This document shows, one piece after another, positions 735 through 13,721 of a stretch of 64,000 bases of DNA. The notes below the pieces were generated by a model. The model saw only the letters and a program-made list of their open reading frames with translations. It had not been told where the DNA came from and ran no database searches. The stretch is taken from contig NZ_CP009518.1 of the NCBI RefSeq assembly GCF_000970325.1, positions 186,001-250,000 of the forward strand. The letters run 5' to 3'. Within the stretch, counting starts at the first letter, position 1. Every line of letters starts with the position of its first letter. Made by a program: the position numbers and the translations under genes. This DNA comes from Methanococcoides methylutens MM1 (GTDB lineage Archaea > Halobacteriota > Methanosarcinia > Methanosarcinales > Methanosarcinaceae).

Positions 735-2651
735 ATGGATGGTTATCAATTGTTTATGGCAATGCTTGCAGTCTACCTTTGTGGACTGATCGGCATTGGC
801 TGGTACTTTACAAAAAGACAAAAGACAGTAACCGATTTCTGGCTTGCCGGTCGTAAGGTCGGTACAATAGGGGTCGGATTTTCCTCGGCAGCTTCATGGC
901 TGACCGCTGGTGGAATATTAGCCGTGATAGGATTCTTCATGCTACTTGGAATGGGCTCCATATGGGGTTTTGTAGCACCGAACATTCTTGCACTGCTTAT
1001 AATCGCTATATTCGTGAAGAGGATCAAACATCTTCCTGCTATTACACAGGCAGAGCTGCTTGAACAGAGGTACAGTTCTGCTATCCGTGCTCCTGTGGGA
1101 ATTATCATCACGATCGTAATGATCCTTTTCGCAGTTGCCGATATCAAGGGATTTGCTCTTGTGTTGCAGATATTCTACGGTGTTGATCCGATCTATGCAG
1201 CATTGATAGTTGCCCTTGCAGTATCCGTATATGTTACTCTTGGTGGACTGCATGCCGTTGTCTGGACCGATGTGATCCAGTTCGCGTTCCTTTCCATATT
1301 TGCGATCATTATGGCATTCCTTGCAGTTGATTCAGTTACTTCTAATGTTGCTACTATATCAACAGCATCAGATCTATTCTCCGGCGTTCCCGGCGACTGG
1401 TGGAACCCGTTCATCATCGGTATCCCAATGGTGCTGATTTTCGTATTTGCTATTATCCCTGGATGGATCACTGAGCAGGACCCATGGCAGAAGGTCTGGG
1501 CAGCTAAGGATTCAACATCAGCAAGAAACGGTCTGGTGCTTGGTTCTCTTCTTGTAACAATTGTGTTCAGTGCATGTGCAGTTATTGCTATTGCTCTCAG
1601 TGCATTGTATCCGGAGATTCCTGCAGCAGGTTTCCCAATGGGAATGGCTCAGGCAGAACCTGCATTACTGACCTACATTGTAAGCACATTCTCACCTGCA
1701 ATTATCGGCCTCAGCGCTATTGGTCTTGCAGCAGCTTCAATGTCCTGTGCTGATACCTTTGCAACATCCGGTGCATCATGTGTCTCACGTGATATCTACC
1801 AGAGGTTCATAAGGCCGGACGCAACAATGAAGCAGATGCTTGCCATCAACAGGCTTAGTGTCCTTTTCATAGTCGCTGCAGCAACTGTGGCTTCATTCTT
1901 CATTGATGGTATCATCGAAGCGATCCACATTGCAACCTTCATTGCAAGTGCATCCTACTTCTTCCCTCTCATGGGCGGATTGTACTGGAAGCGTGCTACC
2001 AAGGAAGGTGCACTGGCCGGTCTGATCGTTGGTGCTGTTGCACAGATCAGTTTTACAATATATGACAAGGTAATGACCTCACCTATGGCTCCACCATACC
2101 TTGAGACCGTACATCCGATCCTCATGAACCATGGTGTCATTGTGGGAATGGCCCTCAGTGGAATTGCATTCTTCGGTGTCTCATTCATGACAAGGCCATC
2201 AAATATTGTTAATCTTGCTCCTTTCTTCAAGGAAGCAGCAGAAGAGCTGGCAAGTCACGAGGCCCAGGCAGTTGATGAGGACAGTGCAGAGTACAAGAAG
2301 TTCCTGAAGAACGTCGATGAGCAGATCACAGGAGAACGTGCACACCTTCACCTGAGGCTTGAAGGTTCTGCAACTGTTAACTGGACAAGGTTCGTTGAAC
2401 AGCTCAAGGATTCCTATGCTGCATGGGTCACACCAACAGGCATTGATTCTGTGTACAGGCTTATCCAGGCTGACATGCTTGCATGTGTTTCCATCACACG
2501 AGGTGAGGGCGAGAAGGAGATCTGGTTCGCATCCGAACCACCTGTTGACTCTGTGGAGATGCAGAAAAGGGAACTTTTCATCGCATACAAAGAGGTTGCA
2601 GCTGCTCTCGAAGAGACCGGCGTGATCCTCACAATGGCAAACAACGACTAA
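735..2651 (+). CDS. Sodium/solute symporter (SSS family) with long C-terminal extension
   Basis: A 638-residue polytopic membrane protein of the sodium:solute symporter family (LeuT fold). The N-terminal helix is followed by the family loop AGRKVGTIGVGFSSAASW around residues 38-55 and by about a dozen further hydrophobic segments to about residue 490. Members usually have 480-530 residues; here about 140 soluble residues follow, rich in charged and helical sequence. The substrate cannot be read from the sequence: proline, glycine betaine, pantothenate or a carboxylate are all possible. It is a single-gene unit with its own promoter and a strong terminator directly after it. Confidence 0.9.
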   Translation: MDGYQLFMAMLAVYLCGLIGIGWYFTKRQKTVTDFWLAGRKVGTIGVGFSSAASWLTAGGILAVIGFFMLLGMGSIWGFVAPNILALLIIAIFVKRIKHLPAITQAELLEQRYSSAIRAPVGIIITIVMILFAVADIKGFALVLQIFYGVDPIYAALIVALAVSVYVTLGGLHAVVWTDVIQFAFLSIFAIIMAFLAVDSVTSNVATISTASDLFSGVPGDWWNPFIIGIPMVLIFVFAIIPGWITEQDPWQKVWAAKDSTSARNGLVLGSLLVTIVFSACAVIAIALSALYPEIPAAGFPMGMAQAEPALLTYIVSTFSPAIIGLSAIGLAAASMSCADTFATSGASCVSRDIYQRFIRPDATMKQMLAINRLSVLFIVAAATVASFFIDGIIEAIHIATFIASASYFFPLMGGLYWKRATKEGALAGLIVGAVAQISFTIYDKVMTSPMAPPYLETVHPILMNHGVIVGMALSGIAFFGVSFMTRPSNIVNLAPFFKEAAEELASHEAQAVDEDSAEYKKFLKNVDEQITGERAHLHLRLEGSATVNWTRFVEQLKDSYAAWVTPTGIDSVYRLIQADMLACVSITRGEGEKEIWFASEPPVDSVEMQKRELFIAYKEVAAALEETGVILTMANND

Positions 2652-2663
2652 ATCTTAGACTGA

Positions 2664-2685
2664 CACTCCCTCTCATCAGGGAGTG
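2664..2685 (+). terminator. Hairpin terminator after the symporter
   Basis: A perfect 8-bp stem (CACTCCCT / AGGGAGTG) with a 6-nt loop is followed by seven T residues from 2693. It ends the symporter transcript. Confidence 0.85.
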
Positions 2686-2760
2686 CTATCCCTTTTTTTC
2701 AATAACCTTTTTTACCAATGGTGCCCATTATTTTTTGATAAACTGTTTGTGATGTGTACA

Positions 2761-3681
2761 ATGAATAGAACAATTATAACAACAGTATTCATTTTCGCTA
2801 TTGCACTAATGGCATCAGGATGCATTGATGAACTCGTTCCTGTGGATGAGGAAGCTGTAGCTCCTGACCTTTCCACATATGAGCTGCAAGTCTTTTACGA
2901 CACCACGGAAGAAGGCGATCTGTTAAACACGACCACTTTCTATCTTACAGACAACGGATCTGCTAATGTAGTTCATATGGTCGTGAATGCTTCTGTAATT
3001 GAGGTGATCCCTCTTGAGGATATACTGAATCCTAACAAGGAGGCAATCTCTAATATAGTCATACTTGCAGGCAACGCTGAGGATACTGAACCCTCCTTTG
3101 AGACCTTTGAAACGCTTTCAACATCTTCGATAGATGATGTGCCTGTTTTTAATTATACTATGGAAGAGGAGGTAATCCGGGGGCAGAAGCACATCTACAT
3201 GAAGTTCAATGAAAGTATCACCGGAATTGTGGCTTATAGCATGACGGCTCCCATGGGGCAGGATTTCATGTACATACCTTCCCATGATTCGGTTGTAAGG
3301 TTCGTCCTTCCTGAAGGCTTTACAACAGGTAATCCGTTTATAGGCAAAGTGAGCCCTGAGCCTGAAGAAAGATACTTTGACGATCTTAACAGGGAGGTCC
3401 TTGTATGGTACGATCTGCGTGCAACAGCCGGTTCTTTCACAGAGATGGCAAGGGAATTCCTTAAGGTAGAGATCACTGAAGAGGATCTGCCTTACAACCC
3501 TATAGTTATCAAGTTCTATTCGACATCCGCTCCCCGCATGCTTTTAATAGGTACGATCATCCTTGGTGGCGGAGCACTTATTGTACTTGGTAACTACCTT
3601 TCAACGAGAAGACGACTTCGCAAGGCCCGGGAGGTCATCGAAGAAGGATTCGATGAGAAAGGAAAGAACAAATTGAAATGA
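2761..3681 (+). CDS. Exported lipoprotein with C-terminal membrane anchor (DUF5803-like)
   Basis: About 306 residues. The start at 2761 (MNRTIITTVF) is preferred over upstream in-frame starts because it gives a clean signal peptide with a lipobox ASGC near residue 20. The mature part is a beta-rich extracellular domain; near residues 260-285 comes a hydrophobic helix (MLLIGTIILGGGALIVLG), then a short basic tail (STRRRLRKARE). The protein is thus anchored at both ends, with most of it outside. It resembles the archaeal DUF5803 family by overall architecture, which I infer without a search. No function is known. It ends in a hairpin shared with the convergent gene. Confidence 0.75.
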   Translation: MNRTIITTVFIFAIALMASGCIDELVPVDEEAVAPDLSTYELQVFYDTTEEGDLLNTTTFYLTDNGSANVVHMVVNASVIEVIPLEDILNPNKEAISNIVILAGNAEDTEPSFETFETLSTSSIDDVPVFNYTMEEEVIRGQKHIYMKFNESITGIVAYSMTAPMGQDFMYIPSHDSVVRFVLPEGFTTGNPFIGKVSPEPEERYFDDLNREVLVWYDLRATAGSFTEMAREFLKVEITEEDLPYNPIVIKFYSTSAPRMLLIGTIILGGGALIVLGNYLSTRRRLRKAREVIEEGFDEKGKNKLK

Positions 3682-3696
3682 GGCCTGTTACAGGCC
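3682..3696. terminator. Hairpin terminator between convergent genes
   Basis: GGCCTG-TTA-CAGGCC, a perfect 6-bp stem with a 3-nt loop, is followed by CACTTTTTT. It lies between the lipoprotein gene and the convergent metallo-beta-lactamase gene. Confidence 0.7.
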
Positions 3697-3732
3697 CACT
3701 TTTTTGATTTCGATTTAGAAAGATATCTATTT

Positions 3733-4479
3733 TCAGAAAATAAATTCCATTCCGTCATAACCCAGCGGGAATGTGGCAACTGCCTCTTCATGAGGCTTGT
3801 AATAGTGGCTCAGGTGTGTCATCACGACCTCCTTCGCCCTTATTTTTTCAGCCATTTCCGTGGCCTCTTTTGCATCCATGTGTTTCTTTACATGGAATCC
3901 TACATCATCCGGGATAATAGCATCCACAATGAACAGGTCAGGGTCCATTATAAGTTCAAGACTTTTTTCCGGGATATTGTTGTCCGTGTCCCCGCTGATG
4001 ACCACTTTCCTGTCACCTTCGCGTATGATGACACCTATCGCCTTTTCAACAGGGGGATGATTGACCTCGAAGACCGTGAACTCAAGTCCGATGATCTCAA
4101 ACGGTTCCCCTGGGATAACATCATGTCTTCGTGGTTTCAAAAATGAGACATAATCGAGTATGTAGTCCAGTGTATCGGTGACCCCGTAGACGTCAACATG
4201 GCTCTGGACGCGGTGGAACTCACCAAAACCGGTGTAGTGGTCGTAATGTCCGTGGGTCCAGATCACTGCATCAATATGCTTTATGCCTCTACTGAGCATC
4301 TGCTGCCGCATGTCCGGACTTGTGTCGATCAGCACTTTTCCCTCATCGGTTTCCACAAGGACCGAAAAGCGCGTACGGTTACTCTTTCCTCCGTTGCGGG
4401 CATCCCTGCAGGTCCTGCAGTCACAGCCGATGATAGGGGTGCCGGGTGCGTCACCGGTTCCCAAAAGCGTGATCTTCAT
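3733..4479 (-). CDS. Metallo-beta-lactamase fold phosphodiesterase, PhnP-like
   Basis: 248 residues with the metallo-beta-lactamase signature HGHYDH at 76-81, SGDTDN further on and a late MTHLSH, which together supply the two-metal site. Near the N-terminus GCDCRTC (C19, C21, C24) matches the extra zinc-binding cysteines of the PhnP branch, which hydrolyses cyclic phosphodiesters. That points to a phosphodiesterase rather than a lactamase or RNase Z, though the substrate is open. The gene starts 6 bp after the AAA ATPase stop and is surely co-transcribed with it. Confidence 0.85.
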   Translation of the reverse strand: MKITLLGTGDAPGTPIIGCDCRTCRDARNGGKSNRTRFSVLVETDEGKVLIDTSPDMRQQMLSRGIKHIDAVIWTHGHYDHYTGFGEFHRVQSHVDVYGVTDTLDYILDYVSFLKPRRHDVIPGEPFEIIGLEFTVFEVNHPPVEKAIGVIIREGDRKVVISGDTDNNIPEKSLELIMDPDLFIVDAIIPDDVGFHVKKHMDAKEATEMAEKIRAKEVVMTHLSHYYKPHEEAVATFPLGYDGMEFIF

Positions 4480-4485
4480 GGGTCC

Positions 4486-5775
4486 TTAGAAACCCCCGGT
4501 ATTGACGACATATTCATCGGATTTAATGTGAGCCCGCTTGTTGAACCTGCCAACTGCATCAATGAGGTCCTGATGGCTGATGGTTGTACGCTCCTCCACA
4601 AGTGCATTGAGCACACTCTCACGGATGATCATACGGAGGTCGGAACCGGAGTATCCTTCGGTGATGGGTGCAATCTCTCCGGTGTTGAAGTCGCCTTTTA
4701 TTTCCATGGTAACGATATCGAGGATCTCCTTTCTCATCCTCTCATCAGGAAGCGGGAAGTCCATGATCTCGTCGAATCTTCTCCAGACAGCAGAATCTAG
4801 CATTCTGGGGTGGTTCGTAGCGGCTATCAGGAGTACACCGTCGTTGGTAAGGCTGATCTGGTCAATGGCCTTGAGAAGCGTGTTCACAGCTCTCTTTAAA
4901 GCTGCGTGTTCGTCTGAAGCCCTTGTCTTGGCGACAAAATCGAACTCATCTATGAAGAGGATACATGGGCTCAGGCGCTTGGCAAGTGCGAACACCCTGT
5001 CGATGTTCTTTGCTGTCTCACCGAGGTACTGGTCGGTTATCATGGAAAGCCTGACCTCTACAAAAGGTATGGAAAGGCGTTCTGACATTGCCTTTGCCAC
5101 AGAGGTCTTTCCGGTTCCGGGTGGTCCCACAAGCAGTATCTTTCCGATATCATACAGTCCTATGCTTTTGAGATACTCCCTGTACTCGATCGCCTTTACT
5201 ATCTTCTCTACTTCTTCTTTCTGCTCATCATTGAGCACAAGGTACCTGAGAGGCTGGACAATATCCTCCGGAGCCACGATCTCCACAAGTTTGAGCATGT
5301 CCTCTCCGCCCTCTTCTTCGGCGATCTCACTTCTCAGGGACTCGATCCATTCCCTGTCAACCTCTTTAGGTCTTGTCACAGAACGTGCTTTTTCATAACT
5401 TGTTCCTGCGACTTCCTTCTTTTCATAATAATATGCAAGTGCCGGGTTCTGGTCGATGCGCTCTGCAGCATTCTCCTGTTTGCGGAACCAGTCTGCAGCA
5501 ACATCAAAGGAAGTGAACTTTATCCTGGATGTAAGTTCGTCTACATCCATGAATGGAAGTGAGAATATCTGTCCCTTTATCTCCTCTATCTCAAAGAGCT
5601 TCTTTATGTCAGAGCGGGAGACATTAATTGGTTTTGGAACGCCTTTGTGTGCACGGCTCCAGTAGTTCTTCCTTATGTTCTTCGGAAGATCGTTAACATC
5701 CATTTCCGGGTATCTGTTGTATATCTCTGCTGTCAGTAGGAGTTCTATGATGTCGAGGGTTGTCTTGTCGGACAT
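4486..5775 (-). CDS. AAA family ATPase with unknown N-terminal domain
   Basis: 429 residues. The C-terminal half is a single AAA module: Walker A GPPGTGKTS near 218, Walker B ILFIDEFD, sensor-1 AATNHP and an arginine pair in WRRFD, ending with the helical lid. These residues are all intact, so it should hydrolyse ATP. The first ~190 residues are helical and charged and match nothing I recognise; they may select the substrate. The AAA core resembles proteasome-activating nucleotidase and Cdc48 modules, but it lacks the C-terminal HbYX tail expected of a proteasome partner. It is first in an operon with the PhnP-like hydrolase. Confidence 0.85.
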   Translation of the reverse strand: MSDKTTLDIIELLLTAEIYNRYPEMDVNDLPKNIRKNYWSRAHKGVPKPINVSRSDIKKLFEIEEIKGQIFSLPFMDVDELTSRIKFTSFDVAADWFRKQENAAERIDQNPALAYYYEKKEVAGTSYEKARSVTRPKEVDREWIESLRSEIAEEEGGEDMLKLVEIVAPEDIVQPLRYLVLNDEQKEEVEKIVKAIEYREYLKSIGLYDIGKILLVGPPGTGKTSVAKAMSERLSIPFVEVRLSMITDQYLGETAKNIDRVFALAKRLSPCILFIDEFDFVAKTRASDEHAALKRAVNTLLKAIDQISLTNDGVLLIAATNHPRMLDSAVWRRFDEIMDFPLPDERMRKEILDIVTMEIKGDFNTGEIAPITEGYSGSDLRMIIRESVLNALVEERTTISHQDLIDAVGRFNKRAHIKSDEYVVNTGGF

Positions 5776-5922
5776 GTTCTTACCTTGTATGATGAGGATG
5801 ATTTGATGAATGATCGTATGCTCGTATTGAGCAGTTCAGTGAACCATAAGATTATGTGGTTCTTTTAGATATAATTTATGTGTTTATGTTCCGGAAGGAT
5901 GTTATGATCCCATGCTATCATC

Positions 5923-6474
5923 TCATGGAACTGCCCGGACATATCCCTTTTTAGGAGAATATATGTCCCCTTTTCGCAGCAATTTTTCCATTGTGACGCC
6001 AAAGGTTTCCTCGTCAAGATCCTGCCTGAGTGCAAGCTCCTGAAGTGCAGTTACCTGCAACGCCCCCTGTTCTTTCTCAAGAATTGACAAAATGATCTTT
6101 GCAGAATCCTTTTTTTTGGACTGCGGCTTGATGTTGGGGGAGGGTGCCTGGAAATTCGGGGCGGTTTCCTTTTCGGCATGCACTGATCCGGATCCATGTC
6201 CAGGTGATGAAGTAAATGTGGAAAAAGATGCACCTTTTGAGGCTGCACTGCCTTTCATGGTCTCGTATCCTTTTCCGAGGACCTCTGCCTGCAATCTGGT
6301 ACGTACTGCAATAGCCTCTTCCAGGTTATCTGTTGTGTGGAATACTCTCAGTTTCCTTGTCTGCAGGGTGGCTCCGCAGCGCTGGCATCGTGTGGTCTTT
6401 GCACCTTTCTGTTCTATCAGCTGGGCGGACTTCCTGCATTTTGGACATACTATGACCGAATATACTGGCATCAT
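5923..6474 (-). CDS. Zinc-ribbon plus winged-helix-like protein (DUF5817-like)
   Basis: 183 residues. The N-terminus has CPKCRK and CQRCGA, a four-cysteine zinc ribbon, followed by the QTRKLR segment and an alanine/arginine-rich helix seen in the archaeal DUF5817 group. A low-complexity Ser/Pro/Lys linker (about 75-120) joins a C-terminal domain of 60 residues that looks like a winged helix. The parts suggest a nucleic-acid-binding protein; no target is known. The two adjacent ATGs (6474, 6471) cannot be separated: no clear ribosome site precedes them and a TATA-like CTTATAC lies very close. Confidence 0.7.
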   Translation of the reverse strand: MMPVYSVIVCPKCRKSAQLIEQKGAKTTRCQRCGATLQTRKLRVFHTTDNLEEAIAVRTRLQAEVLGKGYETMKGSAASKGASFSTFTSSPGHGSGSVHAEKETAPNFQAPSPNIKPQSKKKDSAKIILSILEKEQGALQVTALQELALRQDLDEETFGVTMEKLLRKGDIYSPKKGYVRAVP

Positions 6475-6562
6475 TGAGAGGTTGTGCTATCTTGTATAAG
6501 TATGGTACCCTGCAATATCCAAACCTTTAATTTATCACTTATGAAGTGAATAGTCCTGTCAT

Positions 6563-6982
6563 ATGTTGCGGATAGCTACCAGTTCGGATATTCCTTCGGT
6601 CGTAGAGATCGAGAACCTCTCATTTGAGGTGCCGTGGGAAGCGAACGTTTTCCATTCGTATGCGGACTATCCCGGCTTTATTGTTGTGGAATCCGATGGT
6701 GTCATCATTGGATATGCTGTTCTTGTTGTCATTAAAAAAGCGGCACATCTTGCAAGCATTGCAACCCACCCGGAACACCGGAGAATGGGAGTTGCAACGG
6801 CTCTTCTCGATGTATGTGATCTTCTTGCAAAAGAGAACTCTTATTCCTTTATCCGTCTGGAGGTAAGGGAAAAGAACAAAGATGCTCAGGAATTCTACCT
6901 GTCGAACGGGTTTGAGGTGACAGGCAATATTCCGCGATATTATCTTGATGACAATGCTATTGTGATGGAACGAAAGGTCTGA
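6563..6982 (+). CDS. rimI: GNAT N-terminal acetyltransferase (RimI/Ard1 type)
   Basis: 139 residues covering one GNAT domain. The acetyl-CoA binding motif is ATHPEHRRMGVATALL at 68-82, with the Q/RxxGxG/A core at 73-78; LEVREKN and the FYLSNGFE segment (about 111-118) are typical of RimI. Archaeal RimI-type enzymes acetylate protein N-termini, often with broad specificity. The gene is divergent from the zinc-ribbon gene and convergent with the prenyltransferase gene, with 18 bp between stop codons. Confidence 0.85.
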   Translation: MLRIATSSDIPSVVEIENLSFEVPWEANVFHSYADYPGFIVVESDGVIIGYAVLVVIKKAAHLASIATHPEHRRMGVATALLDVCDLLAKENSYSFIRLEVREKNKDAQEFYLSNGFEVTGNIPRYYLDDNAIVMERKV

Positions 6983-11788: not shown

Positions 11789-12229
11789 TTCTTTTTTCTT
11801 TTCTTTTTTTGACCCGGCAGAAATGCTTTATTTCTTCTATAGGGATGGATTGATCTGGTAATATTGGGGATGTCTCATAATAATAACAATCATAACATCT
11901 AAAAATCATTCATTAAGTTAATATAGTATAATTATATTTGTATATTCCATCGACCATACTACGAATTATAATTTCGTGGTACGGTCTTAAAAACGAAACT
12001 TGTGGTTGTGGTTCTGCTTGGTGGTGGTGCTGCGATATCACTAATTAGGGGATTATCATTTGTTCTTAATTCCCCCTCCATTTTTCCTCGCCATCCTCTG
12101 TTCTTGAGAATTCTAAATTCCGATCATCAGCTTCTGTTCTCTCAAAATCCTTAATATTCTCAAATTGCCAGGCAAGCACCTGTTAACAAATCCTTTTTAG
12201 AAATATCTTCAGAACGGTCATGTCCTTAA
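11789..12229. other. Intergenic stretch with a stem-loop, no gene seen
   Basis: About 440 bp, AT-rich, with no ORF of coding character. The one clear structure is a 14-bp inverted repeat at 11952-11965 / 11973-11986 (GACCATACTACGAA against TTCGTGGTACGGTC, one mismatch and one wobble, 7-nt loop). It is followed by a short G/T-rich run. The stretch lies between the thermosome terminator and the left end of the repeat-bounded cassette, and may be the remains of older insertions. Confidence 0.45.
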
Positions 12230-12250
12230 GAGGGCTTGCCCATAAAGTCC
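12230..12250 (+). repeat. Left terminal inverted repeat
   Basis: The 21-bp sequence starting GAGGGCTTGCCCATAAAG is the exact reverse complement of 13658-13678. It contains the inner palindrome GGGCTTGCCC and, on the minus strand, a variant (ACTTTATGGGCAA) of the array motif. Confidence 0.85.
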
Positions 12251-12253
12251 CTT

Positions 12254-12306
12254 ACTTTGTGGTCAACTACCCTACTTTATAGTCAAATGGCACATTTTGT
12301 GGTCAA
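12254..12306 (+). repeat. Left array of three 20-bp-period repeats
   Basis: ACTTTGTGGTCAA (12254), ACTTTATAGTCAA (12274) and ATTTTGTGGTCAA (12294), each starting exactly 20 bp after the last. They lie between the left inverted repeat and the lipoprotein promoter. Confidence 0.85.
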
Positions 12307-12430
12307 ATCACATATAGGCAAACCATTTCCGCCCATTTACATAGCCAGAATCATATTATTCATTTTCAATAATTAAGTTAACTTTTTATATTTATGAATA
12401 ATACTAATTAATAATTTATGGAGTGGGCCC

Positions 12431-13522
12431 ATGAGTACACAGAAATTAACAATTCTTTTAGCGATAACATCGTTCCTGCTCTTTTCTGCAGGGTGTATTG
12501 GTGAAGATCTTACAGCTGAACAGATAGCTGAAGAATACAAACAAAAAATGGAAGACCTTGAAGACTTTTCGGGCACAGTCTACACAACGACGTATATGGG
12601 CGAACAGGAAATGACAACCATATCTACGATTACCCAAAAGATGCCCGATAAGATGAAAATGGTCACATTACAAGCCGAACAGGGCGAAGGCACAACACTT
12701 GTTTCCGATGGGAAAACAATGTGGGCATATGATGCGAACCAAAACACTGTTGTGATCACGGAACTGGATTCAATCGATGGCTACGATGCCAGTCAGATGG
12801 ACTACACTGAGACAATACAGAATTTCATGGATGGGAATGAAGTCACTTTCGATGGCATGGACAATGTAAATGGTAGACTTAGTTATGCAATATCCATAAA
12901 GCCAAATGAAGACACTATATCTGGTTTTGGTTTTGATATGAAAGCATGGATTGATAAGGAAACTTGGATGATACTGAAGTATGAATTCGATGATGAGGAT
13001 GGAAATCTCATGATGGTCACTGAATTTAGAGATCTCAAAGTTAATACAGGAATCCCTGATTCAGAATTCGTGTTTGATATTCCCGAAGGAACGGATGTTG
13101 TTACGTTTGATAGCTTCGCTGAATTTGTTGCCGAGGAAATGCCTCTGGAAGAAGAACAGACAGTATCCGAAAACCATGTATTTCTTCCATCCTATCTTCC
13201 AGAAGGCTATGAATTTGAAAGTATGACCCATAACAATAATCCGAAATACTTCGAAGATGTACGGGAAACTGTTTCTATTGTTTACCCTGGAGAATCGGGA
13301 CACCTTTATATCAATGAAAATTTCTATGATGGGGAACCACCTGCAATTATGGATATTGATGGTGAAATGGTGGACATTAACGGACACGAGGGTATTCTGA
13401 TTTCTCCAGATGACGTTGGAGAATCCGTATCTCTTTCATGGACTATCGGAAATGCCAGAATCTCAATGATTGGCTCGATGGGATCAGAAGAAATAATAAA
13501 AATCGCTGAATCAATGGAATGA
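12431..13522 (+). CDS. Lipoprotein with LolA-like fold and DUF4367-like C-terminal domain
   Basis: 363 residues. A signal peptide ends in the lipobox SAGC, so the mature protein is lipid-anchored outside the cell. Residues ~25-215 have the repeating short beta-strand pattern of LolA/LolB-like outer-membrane-lipoprotein-sorting folds (DGKTMWAYD, WIDKETWMILKYE). Residues ~240-363 resemble DUF4367 (LPSYLPEGYEFE, GHEGILI). Archaea have no outer membrane, so the role is unknown; such proteins are numerous in methanosarcinal archaea. A TATA box (TTTTTATAT near 12385) and a GGAG site before the ATG give it its own promoter. It is the only gene inside the repeat-bounded cassette. Confidence 0.8.
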   Translation: MSTQKLTILLAITSFLLFSAGCIGEDLTAEQIAEEYKQKMEDLEDFSGTVYTTTYMGEQEMTTISTITQKMPDKMKMVTLQAEQGEGTTLVSDGKTMWAYDANQNTVVITELDSIDGYDASQMDYTETIQNFMDGNEVTFDGMDNVNGRLSYAISIKPNEDTISGFGFDMKAWIDKETWMILKYEFDDEDGNLMMVTEFRDLKVNTGIPDSEFVFDIPEGTDVVTFDSFAEFVAEEMPLEEEQTVSENHVFLPSYLPEGYEFESMTHNNNPKYFEDVRETVSIVYPGESGHLYINENFYDGEPPAIMDIDGEMVDINGHEGILISPDDVGESVSLSWTIGNARISMIGSMGSEEIIKIAESME

Positions 13523-13602
13523 TGAGTATATCTCCTCAAGTTCCATTTTAAGGAAAATTATTTTCAAATAAACCAAAGGTATTAGAAGTTGTTAATTCCT
13601 TG

Positions 13603-13655
13603 AGTTTATGGTCAACTGTATCACTTTGTGGTCAAATTGCGTAGTTTGTGGTCAA
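13603..13655 (+). repeat. Right array of three 20-bp-period repeats
   Basis: AGTTTATGGTCAA (13603), ACTTTGTGGTCAA (13623) and AGTTTGTGGTCAA (13643), again at exact 20-bp steps and in the same orientation as the left array. A fourth variant, ACTTTATGGGCAA (13660), falls inside the right inverted repeat. Confidence 0.85.
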
Positions 13656-13657
13656 GA

Positions 13658-13678
13658 GGACTTTATGGGCAAGCCCTC
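13658..13678 (-). repeat. Right terminal inverted repeat
   Basis: A 21/21 match to the reverse complement of 12230-12250. It is followed by CTTA and then the promoter of bioY. Confidence 0.85.
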
Positions 13679-13721
13679 CTTAGGAGTAAAGTATATATTC
13701 ATTGTCAACCAGTAAAAAAAC

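Follow-up and report, generated by a model that had tools for sequence, protein, structure and literature searches.

A transposase-free lipoprotein cassette in Methanococcoides methylutens and a family of cargo-carrying elements with phased iteron ends

Eukaryotic Mutator elements (MULEs) and Pack-MULEs generate 9-bp target site duplications (TSDs), have a SWIM zinc finger in their transposase, and include nonautonomous copies that carry genes, while Tn7-like elements duplicate 5 bp of target. Mobile insertion cassettes (MICs), in which a passenger gene lies between insertion sequence (IS)-type ends without a transposase and is moved in trans, have been proposed for qnrD (PMC3913671). Defense cargo has been described for Tn7-like elements (Benler et al. 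2021, as cited in PMC8987985), and restriction-modification systems that are IS linked or otherwise mobile have also been described (PMC3031569).

Here, we analyze a cassette in a 64,000-bp stretch of the Methanococcoides methylutens MM1 chromosome (NZ_CP009518.1, positions 186,001 to 250,000; "the window"). We put at about 90% the probability that this cassette is a nonautonomous DNA transposon of the mobile insertion cassette type and depended for its movement on a SWIM-DDE transposase acting in trans. We found no published description of this transposon family in the openly accessible literature, and a family with these ends is apparently undescribed so far.

Boundaries, ends, and cargo of the cassette

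A sequence-only reading of the window had proposed a mobile or formerly mobile unit bounded by a perfect 21-bp inverted repeat. The repeat is present (12230-12250 and 13658-13678), but comparison of complete elements places the boundaries 2 bp further in on each side, at 12232-13676 (1,445 bp); the true tip is 19 bp long, and the outer 2 bp are flanking bases that pair by chance. Exactly two copies of the 19-mer GGGCTTGCCCATAAAGTCC are present in the window, the left tip on the plus strand (12232-12250) and the right tip on the minus strand (13658-13676), against a chance expectation of 0.02 matches with up to three mismatches. The CTTA that had been noticed at both borders is likewise present, although it is just part of a 9-bp TSD, which reads TCCTTAAGA on the left (12223-12231) and TCCTTAGGA on the right (13677-13685), with 8 of 9 bp identical. 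The G+C fraction of the cassette is 0.384, versus 0.459 for the window.

The architecture described for the ends was borne out. Each carries three iterons at exact 20-bp steps, and the two arrays are co-oriented despite the inverted tips. On the left (12255-12306, plus strand), units of the ACTTTGTGGTCAA type at 12255-12266, 12275-12286, and 12295-12306 start at offsets 23, 43, and 63 when read inward and are inverted relative to the tip, and the tip itself includes an inverted iteron, TTGCCCATAAAGT. On the right (13604-13655, minus strand), the offsets read inward are 21, 41, and 61, and the iterons have the orientation of the right tip. Both ends are fully conserved by profile: R1 matches the entire left end at 12232-12336 on the plus strand (101.8 bits, E = 1e-30 in the window), and R2 matches the entire right end at 13577-13676 on the minus strand (96 bits, E = 6e-29 in the window). 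Between them lies a single open reading frame (ORF), at 12431-13522 on the plus strand, and no transposase. As had been suggested, it encodes a LolA-like/DUF4367-like lipoprotein, of 363 amino acids (aa), with matches to LolA_like (1.8e-9) and DUF4367 (1.2e-8) and a lipobox recognized by eye.

Target duplications, empty sites, and sister cassettes

With the tips set at GGGC, the TSD is identical at all nine positions in 10 of 13 elements and at eight of nine in the window cassette and in elements L079 and L080. This count covers elements with correct ends and leaves L248 outside, where the TSD is exact once the element end is placed at 6790. Elements L076 and L077 have both ends present and no matching 9-bp flanks. 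A TSD of 10 to 11 bp was dropped in favor of 9 bp after the copies were compared. The insertion sites are mutually unrelated in sequence.

When joined flanks were searched against 67 genomes, the empty counterpart of the window site was found in a Methanococcoides relative (G003:C6:313298-313696; 87% identity over 399 bp, junction spanned), and empty sites were found for six sister elements (L065, L008, L199, L078, L070, and L068) as well. The alignments show a single target copy at the junction, as had been predicted, and the G003 site contradicts the idea that the cassette occupies the same position in all Methanococcoides. The L065 insertion site is unoccupied in the window genome itself.

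A DNA search of that genome (2.39 Mb) located a left and a right end separated by 5.4 kb (C1:702836-708204) and, at C1:412503, a left end without a partner. The pair bounds a 5,369-bp element with an exact TSD, CCCATTTTG, which encodes small membrane proteins along with two proteins of the NosD/beta-helix type but no transposase. Genome G005 holds the same 5,369 bp, with one base different, at another site with its own exact TSD. Because a single difference over this length separates copies in two species and at two loci, the comparison indicates that this transposase-free sister cassette moved very recently. The G005 insertion (L074:3380-8748) seems, from its flanks, to sit within a coding sequence.

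The left end is present in 9 of the 11 genomes of the genus, and the profiles of the two ends match 31 and 30 of 112 family genomes; bearers of these ends appear to include Methanococcoides seepicolus LLY, Methanohalophilus sp. RSK, and Methanolobus vulcani B1d. A transposase is missing from almost every complete copy with ends of the window type, and L198 is the only such copy with an intact one. The prediction of further copies with different cargo held. Complete transposase-free cassettes carry NosD-type genes (L065, L066, and L068), others carry membrane or secreted proteins as read by eye (L070, L076, L077, L079, and L080), and L078 carries a MarR regulator, a RibD_C/DHFR-like reductase, and, by sequence, an apparent piece of UvrA. 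Within Methanococcoides, surface or membrane proteins make up the most frequent cargo. The movement of surface-lipoprotein genes proposed earlier describes the window copy, but the wider family often carries restriction-modification and other defense genes.

L075, a 15,145-bp M. seepicolus contig, has a cluster of lipoprotein, serpin, and membrane-protein genes, in which the LolA-type lipoprotein is 58% identical to the window protein, together with a lone left end and two right ends without a matching left end. Several candidate observations were set aside. Capture of host DNA was rejected as the source of the UvrA-like fragment of L078, as homologous DNA is absent from five genomes of its genus; decayed transposases adjoining the L067 left end appear to come from the insertion of an unrelated IS; and for a genome-wide 18-mer pattern (53 stretches), nearly all bacterial matches look like chance occurrences in coding sequence, without iterons.

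Elements with a SWIM-DDE transposase

A transposase-bearing copy with the window's ends, the third prediction of the sequence-only reading, is a 12.4-kb element in genome G034 (L198:2057-14458). It has an exact TSD, and its tips deviate slightly from those of the window (GGGGTTGCCTCTAAAG at one end). Its host appears to belong to the Methanohalophilus group and not to the window genus. The transposase (540 aa) combines a DDE_Tnp_1 domain (6e-15) with a SWIM-type Cys/His cluster read from the sequence, and its gene adjoins the left end, which the 3' end of the gene faces. Further cargo includes type I restriction-modification subunits and a PARIS-like AriA/AriB pair (PADLOC, 7e-30 and 4e-19). 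L198 also encodes a transglutaminase-like protein, and a stretch of about 116 bp with a left-type and a right-type end (L198:14468-14583), possibly a miniature element or a remnant, abuts the 12.4-kb element. In G036, an 11.0-kb element (L199) has matching ends and an exact TSD, with the transposase reduced to a stub (a 34-aa match); where L198 has AriA/AriB, L199:2602-5226 encodes an 874-aa protein with no Pfam or PADLOC match, a candidate defense gene. Transposase remnants were found adjacent to an end in G007 and in the vicinity of one in G035, and in the latter genome, a close lipoprotein/right-end copy (78 to 89% DNA identity) is near the transposase fragment.

The genes and Pfam matches of L198 include no TnsB/TnsC, and none of the scanned L198 proteins matches Cas1, the casposon integrase; for L248 and L249, ORFs were inspected by eye alone. 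A PDB sequence search gave no credible match, and the predicted structure of the transposase (mean pLDDT, 43.8) was too poor to use. In the window genome, no homologue of the L198 transposase was found at E <= 1e-5, nor was one found by profile. The earlier proposal of reliance on a recombinase encoded elsewhere fits, but the genome lacks a homologue of that transposase.

Ends co-vary with the enzyme. Relatives 37 to 40% identical to the L198 transposase, among them those of L248 and L249 (38 to 40%), lie in elements with other iteron sequences in the same layout, and the L248 and L249 elements have exact 9-bp TSDs. The L249 element spans 5,456 bp and has tips CGCTTTGTCCGA. The L248 element (886-6790) encodes NosD, a zinc-ribbon protein, the transposase, and a serpin whose gene is apparently split into two ORFs, and it has two internal left ends. 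The divergent zinc-ribbon gene is conserved upstream of the transposase in both elements, and its product could serve as an accessory factor. Around 19 transposase loci, a blind search for 9-bp repeats with inverted tips was positive at 14, compared with 4 of 342 controls consisting of mismatched loci; 8-bp repeats gave one positive and 10-bp repeats none, and the matches of 7-bp repeats in 14 loci are what a 9-bp repeat moved by one base per side would be expected to give. Right-end iterons are near constant across the family (21-22/41-42/61-62, in tip orientation; 22/42/62 in the wider family), while the inverted left-end iterons lie at 23/43/63 in the Methanosarcinaceae subfamily and at 32/52/72 in the wider one. 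The window cassette has this family layout, with the tip repeated as iterons at 20-bp steps, in the same orientation on the right and inverted on the left. L303 fits the layout poorly.

At E <= 1e-20, the transposase profile matches 45 of the 393 phylum genomes; many weaker matches cover the catalytic domain only and are probably ordinary IS5-like enzymes. IMG/VR contigs contributed 13 loci, including one element at 62% G+C, and both SWIM and DDE_Tnp_1 were matched in all six IMG/VR proteins scanned. Elements with homologous transposases in other archaea and in IMG/VR share the 9-bp TSD, tip-derived iterons at 20-bp steps, and the asymmetric orientation. Among their cargo, methylase and specificity proteins of type I are encoded in L308, L311, and L312, and a type II methylase is encoded in L316. 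L295 pairs a methylase with a BglII-like endonuclease, L297 has a methylase together with an Mrr-type domain, and L313 has HsdM/HsdS-like proteins recognized by eye only. Relatives of the L295 transposase were found neither in named plasmids (E <= 1e-20) nor in phages (E <= 1e-10), and a search of 34 bacterial genomes, made without a positive control, found no relatives of the transposase.

Some elements are composite. In L066:3409-6385 and in the L248 element, one right end is combined with several left ends and the TSD lies at the outermost pair, and we propose from this arrangement that elements grow by accretion. The NosD modules of L008 and L065 are about 85 to 93% identical to that of L248 and retain remnants of L248-type TTGTCCGA ends inside their new ends; relic TTGTCCGA-subfamily ends flank NosD genes within these TTGACCATAAAGT-subfamily cassettes (L008:2975-3023 and 6480-6535; L065). 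From these remnants, cargo evidently passes between transposase subfamilies.

Interpretation and comparison with known systems

Comparison of copies demonstrates the ends, the 9-bp TSD, the empty sites, the movement of sister cassettes, and the placement of transposase genes inside like-ended elements; direct binding, cutting, and movement in trans by the transposase we infer. A SWIM zinc finger/DDE transposase supplied by another element would bind the terminal site and three 20-bp-phased iterons along one DNA face at each end, pair the two asymmetric ends, cut at the GGGC tips, and insert them into a target cut with a 9-bp stagger. The window cassette was very likely mobilized in trans in the past. 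Because its own genome has no homologue, movement by a SWIM-DDE enzyme in this host is deduced from relatives, and, for the same reason, the cassette is probably immobile now, stranded unless a homologous transposase reenters the cell. The mismatch in the window TSD, the lack of a homologue in this genome, and the location of the nearest intact transposase with these ends in another genus, in an element with slightly different tips, count against this interpretation.

It could be argued that another recombinase moves these ends and that the SWIM-DDE transposase is a passenger in L198, since outside L198 no complete copy with this end type has an intact transposase and the window genome has none. 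We consider this quite unlikely: sister transposases sit in elements whose tips and iterons differ in sequence but keep the same layout and 9-bp TSD, in L198, L248, L249, and the G007 remnant the C terminus of the transposase points toward the left end, and no other recombinase was seen to be common to these elements. It is possible, though doubtful, that the cassette is a dead relic, in which case an internal deletion removed the transposase from a formerly autonomous element and left only a fixed locus. The imperfect TSD, the lack of a transposase in its genome, and the G035 copy near a transposase fragment are consistent with such a history, but both window ends are fully conserved and a sister cassette has been mobile very recently. 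This explanation is compatible with movement in trans as far as origin is concerned and differs solely in present mobility.

Two further alternatives have almost no probability. Co-oriented phased repeats resemble operator or iteron arrays and might be taken for an immobile, local regulatory array around a conserved lipoprotein gene; this is refuted because of the empty sites, and the cargo differs by copy at different loci with TSDs. One-gene cassettes with a conserved end, and the composites L066 and L248 with their several left ends, recall integron-like or site-specific cassettes moved by a tyrosine recombinase, but insertion at unrelated sites with a 9-bp duplication is DDE-like and not site specific.

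Beyond the nonautonomous transposon in the window, we think it fairly probable that these elements form an undescribed, widespread family of cargo transposons, in which autonomous members specialize in restriction-modification and defense while nonautonomous members carry genes for surface proteins from one methanogen species to another, exchange cargo across subfamilies, and accrete end-bearing modules. Such a family would provide an exchange route among archaea for surface lipoproteins, beta-helix proteins, serpins, and defense systems, and it offers a testable transposase and an unusual end architecture. The constant phasing of the iterons (20-bp steps, with the left arrays of the subfamilies about one helical turn apart) hints at how the synaptic complex may be built. 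Judging by the cargo, restriction-modification systems, which are often described as selfish, may also travel on a dedicated transposon family.

The window cassette resembles MICs in its organization and differs in having ends of the SWIM-DDE family with phased iteron arrays, in its methanogenic archaeal hosts, and in its surface-protein cargo. The transposase has a DDE_Tnp_1 catalytic domain, for which IS5_2 is the best match in NCBIfam, although the two proteins scored, from L198 (115 bits) and L295 (120.8 bits), do not pass the 140-bit cutoff of this curated IS5 family model; an additional SWIM zinc finger at the N terminus, arrays of iterons at each end, the 9-bp TSD, and cargo of up to about 10 kb also set these elements apart from IS5. 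The comparison with Tn7-type ends and plasmid iterons made by the sequence-only reading holds for architecture only, as the transposase is SWIM plus DDE_Tnp_1. Several phased transposase sites per end, asymmetric ends, and defense cargo are shared with Tn7-like elements, whereas here no TnsB/TnsC-type genes were seen, a single SWIM-DDE protein is present, and the duplication is 9 bp. TSD length, the SWIM finger, and gene-carrying copies are common to Mutator/Pack-MULE elements and this family, in which SWIM precedes an IS4/IS5-like DDE_Tnp_1 core, and the resemblance is probably convergent. Finally, as in IS-linked systems, restriction-modification genes move within transposable units, but here a single transposase family with ends of its own carries them repeatedly, in contrast to genes flanked by chance by common ISs.
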